In this document: one piece after another, positions 32,481 through 62,704 of the stretch
Layout of the letters: the number at the start of each line of letters is the position of its first letter
How positions within the stretch are numbered: the first letter of the stretch is position 1
Assembly: GCF_900105945.1 (NCBI RefSeq)
Contig: NZ_FNSO01000004.1
Span: forward strand, 5,890,001 to 5,954,000
Length of the DNA: 64,000 bases
Source: Amycolatopsis tolypomycina
Lineage (GTDB): Bacteria > Actinomycetota > Actinomycetes > Mycobacteriales > Pseudonocardiaceae
Direction of reading: 5' to 3'
The notes under the pieces: model-generated
What the model was told of the DNA's origin: nothing
Seen by the model: the letters and a program-made list of their open reading frames with translations, nothing else
Databases searched by the model: none
Position numbers and translations under genes: made by a program

Positions 32481-37154
<4,674 letters not shown>

Positions 37155-56808: not shown

Positions 56809-57297
56809 TCAGCGGGGCGCGGGGCCCGCCTGGTCGGAAAGCATCCGCAGCGCGTTCACCAGGCCGTTGACCAGTCCACGGACCAGGTCACCCTCCTTGA
56901 ACGACGCCACCATGCTCGCCACCGCCAGCTTGGCGCCGCGGTCCGGCAGCCGCAGGTGCGCCACCTTGCCCGTGACGATCTCGATCAGCCGCTCGCCCGG
57001 CGACACCGCGATCAGCACCGAGTTCGCCGGGTCCGCCGTCGTCGCGTGCAGCTTCTCCGCCGTTGCCCGGCTCTCCGGCCCCAGCTCGCCGAGGTACAGG
57101 CTGAAGTCCAGCCCGGTCTCCCGCGAGGCGAACGTCAGCGCCTCGTCGAGGCGGGCCAGTTGCCGGGTGTTGAACGGCCCGGCCGGCGCCGCCGGCTCGT
57201 ACATCTTGGCCGCGGACACCCGTCCGGTCGCCATCAGTGCCTCGCCGTAGCCCAGCTCGGACTCGTCGACGCGCTTCGTCAGCTCACCAGTTGCCAC
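56809..57297 (-). CDS. DUF5130-family protein (Rv2468c-like)
   Basis: The 162-residue protein has features of the TPM-like DUF5130 family: FNTRQLARLDEALTFASRETGLDFSLYLGELG, ATAEKLHATTADPANSVLIAVSPGERLIEIVTG and a helical C-terminus with MVASFKEGDLVRGLVNGLVNALRML. Function is unknown. GTG at 57297 follows GGGAGG. It overlaps the small membrane gene by 14 bases; the same pair occurs next to pepN in mycobacteria (Rv2468c/Rv2468A), so the association is old. Confidence 0.8.
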   Translation of the reverse strand: MATGELTKRVDESELGYGEALMATGRVSAAKMYEPAAPAGPFNTRQLARLDEALTFASRETGLDFSLYLGELGPESRATAEKLHATTADPANSVLIAVSPGERLIEIVTGKVAHLRLPDRGAKLAVASMVASFKEGDLVRGLVNGLVNALRMLSDQAGPAPR

Positions 57298-57532
57298 GAG
57301 CGCCTCCCGCCGCGGTCGGGGCGCCCTCGGGCGCAACATTCTCAGTGCCGGCGTGCCGGTGTCCCGCACCCTCGGGGTTGGCGCTCCACCACATGGCCGG
57401 GTAGTCCCAGGCCTGGCCGGACCGGTGCCGCGGGGCAGCGCCGGACCTGCGCCGGAGCGTCAGCAGCCCGGCGAGACCGTAGATGGCCAGCGGGATCACG
57501 GCGAAGACCACGATCGTCTCGACAACGTTCAC
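57284..57532 (-). CDS. Small single-span membrane protein (Rv2468A-like position)
   Basis: The 82-residue protein begins at GTG 57532 with MNVVETIVVFAVIPLAIYGLAGLLTLRRR, a single membrane segment with a basic stop-transfer sequence, followed by a hydrophilic region containing QAWDYPAMWWSANPEG. Its size, topology and place upstream of and overlapping the DUF5130 gene match a conserved actinobacterial pair. Function unknown. A much longer open frame on this strand extends upstream through the antisense of the TRVTxG gene. I do not accept that extension because it has no start signals and consists of mirror-image repeats. Confidence 0.75.
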   Translation of the reverse strand: MNVVETIVVFAVIPLAIYGLAGLLTLRRRSGAAPRHRSGQAWDYPAMWWSANPEGAGHRHAGTENVAPEGAPTAAGGARGNW

Positions 57533-57818
57533 GCCGGTGAGCGTATCGGATGACCTCGAAGACACCTCAGCCACCGCGCGCGGCGCACTCGACCGTTCGT
57601 CGTAAGCCGAGTGCCGTCCGCCGCTTGGCTCGCGGCCACTGGAACGTTGGGGCGAAGACCGTCGGGCCGAAAGGTTGCAACTCAACGTACAGGCGGCCGC
57701 ACCCGCCGCTGTCGTCTTGTCGGCGCCTTGAAATCCTCGTAGCTTTTTCACCTGTACGGGCCTTGCGCCCCGCTCCCCAGCCCCAGCAGGTAACGCACCG
57801 GTCCCAGGAGGCCTTGCC
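57533..57818 (+). promoter_or_regulatory. 286-bp divergent intergenic region upstream of the TRVTxG gene
   Basis: No gene is visible. The region separates the minus-strand small membrane gene from the repeat gene and must hold both promoters. AGGAGG at 57806-57811 lies seven bases before the ATG. A TTGCAA hexamer near 57677 may be part of a promoter, but no convincing -10 box pairs with it. Confidence 0.35.
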
Positions 57819-58190
57819 ATGAACAGCGTCCAGACGCCCGCACAGGCGATCACCGAGACCACCTCGTCACTGAGCGACATCGAATTCGTGCCCGGAACGC
57901 GTGTGACGGCGGGCACAAGGGTTACCCGGGGTACACGCGTCACTCGCGGTACACGGGTGACGGCGGGAACCCGCGTCACCATGGGCACCCGGGTGACGGC
58001 CGGCACGCGAGTCACCCGCGGGACCCGGGTCACGCGTGGCACTCGCGTCACGATGGGCACGCGTGTGACGGCCGGCACGCGAGTCACCTGCGGCACCCGC
58101 GTCACGCGAGGCACCCGTGTCACTCGCGGCACGCGCGTCACCATGGGCACCCGCGTCACCTGCCAGAGCGACTACGCGCTCGCTGCCTGA
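57819..58190 (+). CDS. TRVTxG hexapeptide-repeat protein (15 repeats), function unknown
   Basis: The 123-residue protein has a 26-residue unique head (NSVQTPAQAITETTSSLSD, then IEFVPG), 15 perfect TRVTx-G hexapeptides (residues 27-115) and the tail QSDYALAA. The x residues are A R R A M, A R R M A, C R R M C when read in fives, suggesting an ancestral 30-residue block. Codons for the fixed residues vary freely between repeats (all four Thr codons, five Arg codons), so the protein sequence, not the DNA, is conserved. V-T-x-G-T-R fits a hexapeptide beta-solenoid pattern. It is strongly basic. A strong AGGAGG supports expression. Alternatives are a multi-core peptide precursor or a nucleic-acid- or ice-binding solenoid; no modifying enzyme is adjacent. 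Confidence 0.75.
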   Translation: MNSVQTPAQAITETTSSLSDIEFVPGTRVTAGTRVTRGTRVTRGTRVTAGTRVTMGTRVTAGTRVTRGTRVTRGTRVTMGTRVTAGTRVTCGTRVTRGTRVTRGTRVTMGTRVTCQSDYALAA

Positions 58191-58245
58191 CCCCGTACTC
58201 CAGGGCCGCACGCACTACCTGAACACCGCGCGCAAGCACCCGGCT

Positions 58246-58276
58246 CGCCCCGGCCGCCGCACAGGCAGCCGGGGCG
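58246..58276. terminator. GC-rich hairpin between convergent TRVTxG and HNH genes
   Basis: CGCCCCGGC and GCCGGGGCG form an exact 9-bp stem with a 13-base loop, 55 bases after the repeat-gene stop and 34 before the HNH stop. Probable bidirectional terminator. Confidence 0.55.
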
Positions 58277-58309
58277 CCGGCTTGTCCAGGGGGCTCCACC
58301 CCCGAAGAA

Positions 58310-62180: not shown

Positions 62181-62704
62181 GGCTTTCCACAATCCGCGGT
62201 GGGTGTGGACAACTCGGGCCGGTGGCTGGTTCTTTCGGTTTTTCGTCGGTCGCTGCCGATACGCTGGAAGCGGGGGCAGCCCCCAGGGAGGGCGGGCCGC
62301 GCGCTTTTCCGGCCGGGCGCTTTTCCGGCCGGGCGCTTTTCCGGCCGGGCGCTTTTCCGGCCGGCCGGTGGGAGCTGCGTTGTCGTGAACGGGTCGTTCA
62401 TGACGTTCTTGGTCGAGTTGGTGCCGGTCGTGGGTGGCTTGCGGTCGCGGTGGGGTGAGTGGTGTCGTTGCCGGGGCTATGGGGACGGTTGTTGCGGGCT
62501 GTGATGCAGCGAAGGCGGCGTTGGGTGCGTTGAACGCACCGAAGGCCGCCTTGGGGCATCAGCTGCTGCCGCCGGCAGGATCGGGGTGCGCGGAGTTGCC
62601 GGTCGGGAGCCACACGCCGGATCAAGATCATTACGGGCGAGCCGCTCGCGGCGTGACTTTGCCGGAACCCGCCCAGGGAGGGCGGGCCCTGCGCGGCGCG
62701 GGCT
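62181..62704. repeat. 524-bp intergenic region with tandem repeats and palindromic elements
   Basis: No gene is supported. GCGCTTTTCCGGCCGG is repeated four times exactly at 62301-62364. A GTGAACGGGTCGTTCATGAC half-copy of the ATGAACGA palindrome is at about 62384-62409. At 62512-62552 a 20-bp-arm imperfect palindrome (AAGGCGGC/GCCGCCTT with GTGCGTT/AACGCAC centre) resembles the CCAATGTGGCG family in layout. The region follows aglA and precedes a convergent small gene, so it may include a terminator. Confidence 0.75.

Follow-up and report, generated by a model that had tools for sequence, protein, structure and literature searches.

A tandem-repeat protein of Amycolatopsis and other Pseudonocardiaceae with genus-specific cores and an ssrA-like C-terminal tail

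The window analysed here is a stretch of 64,000 nucleotides from Amycolatopsis tolypomycina (contig NZ_FNSO01000004.1), in which a gene for a protein of short tandem repeats lies between a divergent gene for a small protein, probably located in the membrane, and a convergent HNH endonuclease gene (Table 1). The N-terminus of the repeat protein aligns with its relatives under the consensus MxxxxTPAQAxxxxxSS, of which the TPAQA segment is common to many. An antisense frame of 291 codons (57284-58159), itself carrying TRVPxV repeats, shares its wobble positions with the forward frame, so that codon variation alone cannot name the coding strand. Three features of 1,241 TRVTxG units from 86 loci fit the plus strand only: the core Arg is AGG or AGA in 129 units, a change that is silent on that strand alone; Met at the variable position x is written ATG 161 times and never ATA, ATC or ATT; and Cys at x is written TGC or TGT 90 times and never TGG or TGA. 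Judged by these codons and by its homologues, the frame is a genuine gene and the plus strand is coding. Elsewhere in the window we noted a tandem array of 276-bp units at 32988-35045 (7.5 copies, 81 percent matches), degenerate repeats of about 153 and about 163 bp at 526-1158, and 4.4 nearly perfect copies of the 16-bp unit GGCCGGGCGCTTTTCC at 62295-62364.

Table 1. Features at the repeat-gene locus, in window coordinates.
Feature	Position	Strand	Basis
Divergent small protein, 82 aa, GTG start	57284..57532	-	tblastn synteny
Promoter-like pair TTGTCG (57717-57722), 17-nt spacer, TAGCTT (57740-57745)	57717..57745	+	upstream alignment
Leader element TTTTTCACCTGTACGGGCCTTGCG, 75 nt before ATG	57744..57767	+	conservation
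Shine-Dalgarno AGGAGG	57806..57811	+	upstream of ATG
Repeat-protein gene, 123 aa	57819..58190	+	ORF, genus-wide homologues, codon evidence
N-terminal 25 residues with TPAQA segment	57819..57893	+	alignment; low model confidence
Array of 15 GTRVT cores, one-residue linkers	57894..58160	+	sequence
C-terminal tail CQSDYALAA, ssrA-like	58161..58187	+	pattern match, tmRNA tag, tail conservation
Strong hairpin between convergent genes	58232..58285	.	-44.2 kcal/mol for 58225-58300, z -2.1
HNH endonuclease gene, convergent, start uncertain, C-terminus YLGSAA	58310..59215	-	PF14279/PF01844, synteny

An earlier note, made from the letters of the window, had described a protein of 123 residues built of 15 exact TRVTxG hexapeptides; the length stands, and so does the number of repeats if these are taken as exact GTRVT pentapeptides, while reading them as TRVTxG leaves 14 exact units and a final TRVTCQ. 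The five-repeat pattern that it saw in the residue x is approximately present in the window protein and is not general in relatives. Its argument for selection on the protein was borne out, as Thr, Arg, Val and Gly are each written with 3 to 6 codons across the 1,241 units, and within-protein mean diversity over 96 GTRVT loci (1,555 units) is 0.56 at third positions against 0.006 for core residues, the latter being a floor as units were pre-selected at four of five matches. Nonsynonymous sites are thus far from varying as freely as synonymous ones, the core being nearly fixed and the wobble positions diverse. Exact cores make up 1,530 of 1,555 units within one mismatch of GTRVT, 172 of 178 for GVRIS and 93 of 96 for SVRIT, with third-position diversity of 0.49 to 0.56 in these sets. 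A core that barely changes amid widely varying synonymous sites indicates that selection is acting on the repeat protein.

Comparison among relatives revealed that each protein has one dominant core and that its version differs between genera. Exact cores are separated by 1 to at least 27 residues, and long gaps may hide altered cores; the gap is a single residue in 1,359 of 1,436 cases for GTRVT and mostly 3 or 4 residues for GVRIS among the gaps listed. As judged by eye, longer insertions in GTRVT proteins fall mostly at the junction between x and G and look loop-like, and some units are shortened. Linkers differ among members in length and composition, and the number of exact cores per protein ranges from 3 to 60. 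The extreme GTRVT copy numbers are the 60, 48 and 37 exact cores of L121, L043 and L199. Net charge spans -10 to +80 among the 17 members computed, one of which is net negative. Because spacings, core residues and charge all differ among orthologues, neither hexapeptide spacing nor Thr nor basicity is what the family conserves, and the basic Thr/Arg surface proposed in the earlier note is weakened. What holds across the family is x-[V/T/I]-R-[V/I]-x rather than a basic hexapeptide.

The earlier note had proposed a search of related genomes, and at E 1e-8 homologues of the window protein appear in all 80 genomes of its own genus, in 172 of 390 genomes of the family and in 23 of 46 genera. Eighty named homologue loci, a subset kept of 108 found, come from Amycolatopsis, Prauserella, Saccharomonospora, Haloechinothrix, Kibdelosporangium, Actinokineospora, Actinocrispum and Qaidamihabitans, with a single Actinosynnema and a single Rhodococcus besides. 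L311, whose title is Rhodococcus rhodnii NRRL B-16535, has a GTRVT gene match, and the record may be misnamed. The syntenic block described for the window recurs at GTRVT-type loci with wide flanks, with the small protein and a DUF5130-like gene on one side (L111 being taken without its upstream side) and, on the other, the convergent HNH gene with MscS-like and globin genes beyond it. Neighbours matched within about 4 kb of each side are pepN, DUF5130-like, small protein, HNH, MscS-like and globin, the six proteins that were queried, which fill much of that space.

To reach beyond GTRVT, we used the HNH gene as an anchor in 32 family genomes without a strong GTRVT match (two have weak ones); it was found in all 32, and 30 loci were obtained. 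An array of another core sits at the same place in 23 of these 30 loci (21 of 26 genera), with GVRIS in 10, SVRIT in 6, GVRIH in 2, and GVRVT, GIRVT, GIRVN, GVRIE and GVRIN in 1 each; no array was found in the other 7. Other cores also turned up among matches of the GTRVT search, namely GTRIT (L117) and GVRVT (L196). In total the gene is present in 37 of the 42 Pseudonocardiaceae genera examined, 16 of them chosen for having a match and 26 for lacking a strong one. Outside the family, arrays with at least three copies occur in 3 of 30 HNH-anchored loci, all of one genus (GTRVG, GVRVG, AVRVG), and a fourth locus from this genus departs from the core rule with three copies of GGRFG. One locus of another family (L263) carries a short AVRVG repeat gene as two tandem copies adjoining HNH. 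An order-wide search matched 9 genomes of other families, one of them syntenic (L189); among the 7 of these genomes examined, five (L190, L191, L193-L195) lack both a TRVT array and the neighbour genes, and one more lacks an array, as does a weak match within the family (L192). A phage or plasmid origin was considered and set aside, as tblastn at E 0.001 gave no match in 50,697 phage and 72,556 plasmid records.

Upstream of the gene, an alignment of 31 loci keeps CTTGT, a spacer of about 17 nt, a TAGnTT-like hexamer and then TTTTTCACCTGTACGGGCCTTGCG. A generic sigma-70 scan found nothing; from its conservation we read the promoter-like pair as a putative promoter. The leader element, which was absent from the earlier note, is identical at 19 or more of 24 positions in 21 of the 23 HNH-anchored loci that bear the gene, the remaining two having 16 and 14, and lies at background, 12 to 14 of 24, in all seven gene-less ones, none of which reaches 19; by these counts the leader tracks the repeat gene. 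In most members it lies 73-77 nt from the start; L210 and L224, whose choice of start is unsure, are among the exceptions, and the element was not seen in members outside the family. Two roles for the leader were tried and rejected: that of a regulon element, as a 23-nt version, with up to 3 mismatches allowed, has a single copy in the 10.36-Mb genome, and that of a structured RNA, as RNAalifold gave -0.6 kcal/mol for 33 leaders against a mean of -0.08 and a lowest value of -2.3 in 60 column shuffles. Rfam returned one sub-threshold microRNA match and nothing at threshold. Downstream, the hairpin may be a bidirectional terminator; no T-run terminator was found between the convergent genes.

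The C-terminus, likewise absent from the earlier note, ends SDYALAA, and the tmRNA tag of the same genome (ADSSQREFALAA) ends REFALAA. ARAGORN predicts a tag ending [YF]ALAA at 50 of 50 tmRNA loci, all of the window's genus. A DNA pattern for [DE][YF][AST]LAA-stop, which misses the serine codon AGC and admits TGG as the last codon, matches the 10.36-Mb genome twice, at the tmRNA and at the end of the repeat gene; across 80 genomes of the genus it gives 140 matches against 9 for the reversed pattern (summed by hand), individual loci being known from among the matches listed. Of the 80 genus loci 73 were read, and 63 of these end in LAA; among 65 LAA tails (63 from the genus, 2 from others) [DE] stands at -6 in 63 and [YF] at -5 in 63, with varied codons. 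None of 370 neighbour proteins (pepN, DUF5130-like, small, MscS-like, globin) ends in AA. LAA ends occur in 10 of the 37 genera with the gene, among the loci read; RSEYALAA, RQNDFSLAA, RQGELALAA and plain ALAA recur in other genera, and the rest end VTA, TAS, TAA and others. Since, among the loci read, 27 of 37 genera show no LAA end and 10 of 73 genus loci lack it (e.g., L055, L056 and L058-L060), the putative degron is not universal. We also asked whether the Y or F of the tail follows that of the same genome's tmRNA, and by eye it does not, as where an EFALAA tmRNA accompanies a DYALAA tail.

In its C-terminal residues, the feature by which encoded ssrA-like substrates of ClpXP are recognised, the window protein resembles those substrates, and ClpXP turnover would best explain its tag-like end. 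An ssrA-like tail has been the subject of speculation for Hcp too (PMC11731876). The HNH protein, too, ends Ala-Ala at 120 of 128 family loci, namely at 118 of the 121 that bear the repeat gene and at 2 of the 7 that lack it; at the remaining five without the gene it ends Val-Ala. The Ala-Ala end might make HNH a ClpXP substrate as well. A functional link between that Ala-Ala and the repeat gene is no more than a lead, the counts being uncorrected for kinship and some gene-less families also ending AA.

Pfam and NCBIfam contain no family that the window protein reaches at cut-off, and literature searches under GTRVT or TRVT repeats, Amycolatopsis and Pseudonocardiaceae hexapeptide repeats gave nothing on the repeat family, nor did Rv2469c give any hit; the earlier note's statement that no described family has this repeat agrees with these searches. 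Protein-database searches, with about 8,000 candidates scored in each, too few to map the family, listed at least 7, at least 8 and at least 13 entries, the window protein not among them. Among the matches listed from 5.8 billion proteins (7,993 candidates scored), the window protein and full-length GTRVT relatives are absent, and annotation may have overlooked the gene or filtered it out. By the few members that these searches list, the family seems to have received little notice so far.

AlphaFold models of two proteins, one of them an SVRIT member, place strands at the cores with pLDDT of 67 and 73 and pTM of 0.59 and 0.75, the five models per job falling to pLDDT 49 and 41. They predict, at modest confidence, solenoid-like proteins; that tandem repeats invite solenoid predictions counts against their weight, and core gaps of 27 residues or more would sit badly with a uniform solenoid. 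Foldseek found no match at E 0.001 for either model, an absence that is no evidence of a new fold. Hexapeptide chains superpose on these modest-confidence models at about 12 A rmsd and other solenoids at 2.3 to 3.9 A, so that the models do not favour a left-handed hexapeptide fold. Against left-handed hexapeptide proteins the window protein reaches a best E of 0.031 in PDB and 1e-4 to 1e-2 in NCBIfam, far under cut-offs; the best Hexapep score among the members searched is 26.6 bits (L220) against a cut-off of 27, and at E 10 the window protein has no listing for PF00132. Of the beta-solenoid with 18-residue coils proposed earlier, what remains is this weak hexapeptide similarity and the solenoid-like models, and what is weakened, given the other spacings and the poor superposition, is the hexapeptide geometry.

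From these observations we put forward, as a tentative reading that may well be wrong, a short-lived protein controlled by ClpXP and made of stacked beta-strand motifs that may self-assemble. The chromosomal gene would have a conserved promoter and leader of its own to drive its transcription, and the cytosolic product would be a string of x-[V/T/I]-R-[V/I]-x strand cores split by turns and loops. These cores would stack as a beta-solenoid, with [V/T/I] and [V/I] alternately facing inward and Arg outward, an idea suggested by the alternation of residues, by the models and by the sameness of cores within a protein; stacking of like on like would account for cores that are uniform within a protein and of different versions between genera. 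The exposed C-terminus, which in this lineage nearly copies the end of the tmRNA tag, would mark the protein for ClpXP and normally keep its level low. ssrA-tagged proteins are reported to queue for ClpXP (PMC9382460), and under translation stress, with ClpXP busy on tmRNA-tagged proteins, the repeat protein might accumulate and go on to form end-to-end assemblies or serve as a multivalent scaffold. Degradation, accumulation under stress, assembly and function are all conjectural steps of this scheme. A further form of it, which we consider improbable, is a sensor of the proteolytic queue: a beta-strand polymer subunit with an encoded tag ending, made continually, would be destroyed immediately while ClpXP is free and would assemble once ribosome rescue saturates ClpXP, its core serving as a genus-specific assembly code that prevents co-assembly between genera.

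A binding partner that co-evolves with the cores would explain them almost as well as stacking. Each five-residue core could bind one such folded partner, each genus thereby retaining a version of its own, making the protein a multivalent array of linear motifs in which linkers are spacers and the tail sets turnover; we hold this to be somewhat unlikely. It accords with a core nearly fixed per protein despite diverse synonymous sites, with linkers of varying length and composition, and with charges of -10 to +80 and 3 to 60 exact cores, yet no partner is known, HNH being found at gene-less loci too and hence offering no obvious one, and the alternation of V/T/I with V/I suits a strand. A multi-core peptide or RiPP precursor, with an N-terminal leader and repeated cores that are excised or modified, is very unlikely: the leader-like N-terminus with its common segment and the nearly invariant cores between variable spacers would suit it, but the neighbours matched are the six listed above, a tag-like C-terminus is ill-suited to an exported precursor, and cores such as GVRIE and GVRVG have no constant Cys, Ser or Thr. 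Remoter still is a spike-like beta-prism akin to the VgrG/DUF2345 needle. The SVRIT member L210 does score 61.2 bits to DUF2345 (cut-off 30.7), and 3 of its at least 8 database relatives bear DUF2345 names, but eight other repeat members fall under that cut-off (nearest L227, 30.6) or go unmatched, L210 also passes the unrelated cut-offs of DUF3540 and ChapFlgA, as repeats do, and no secretion genes are among the neighbours matched; we judge these matches and names to be an effect of the repeats. That the antisense frame is a real gene, or the array a DNA or RNA element, is practically negligible, for the long antisense ORF with its shared wobble positions and the hairpin 3' of the gene are outweighed by the strand-specific Arg, Met and Cys codons, the Shine-Dalgarno and start, a tail kept across loci and the lack of any Rfam family at threshold.

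Under the stacking reading and the partner reading alike, a core that is fixed within one molecule through many old repeats and divergent between lineages would amount to a sequence code that core swaps could test. If the tail is a true degron, it would be native chromosomal mimicry of the tmRNA tag in a genus known for antibiotics, and would couple the load on ribosome rescue to the level of one protein.

Among known systems, the Hexapep (PF00132) transferases share with the GTRVT version its six-residue spacing, an aliphatic residue and weak profile and sequence matches; they differ in that the repeat family stays below every cut-off, has no enzyme domain, includes orthologues without six-residue spacing and superposes poorly. 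The C-terminal DUF2345 of VgrG resembles the SVRIT version in its octapeptide-like beta repeats, whereas only one of nine repeat members exceeds the cut-off (DUF2345 is not listed in Pfam for the window protein at E 10), and the family lacks a VgrG body as well as secretion genes among the neighbours matched. Bactofilin BacA and the functional amyloids FapC and CsgA, all of them polymerising beta structures built of repeats, turn up in the Foldseek list of the SVRIT model at E 0.7 to 2.4, which is not significant; no sequence relation to the repeat family is shown, and profile searches with the window protein (E up to 10) and with nine other members (E up to 0.1) did not list bactofilin. The phi-polar-phi-small core presumably resembles that of RHIM, and amyloid signalling motifs (BASS) are reported from filamentous actinobacteria. 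Such RHIM and BASS motifs are described at NLR N-termini and effector C-termini, whereas the repeat family forms tandem arrays, and the neighbours matched include no gene of that kind. As far as our searches reach, encoded ssrA-like tails are already known and a genus-specific repeat family of this kind is not. The closest parallels for the tail are sigma-AntA of Streptomyces, for which Ala-Ala-dependent degradation by ClpXP is reported (PMC7142297), and the mycobacteriophage BPs repressor gp33, reported to be degraded via an ssrA-like tail (PMC4557955). Like these two native proteins, one actinobacterial and one from a phage, for which proteolysis is reported, the window protein closes with LAA or AA; unlike them, it belongs to a chromosomal repeat family that in the window's genus mostly carries the fuller D/E-Y/F-A/S/T-LAA ending, a putative degron recognised from its sequence.
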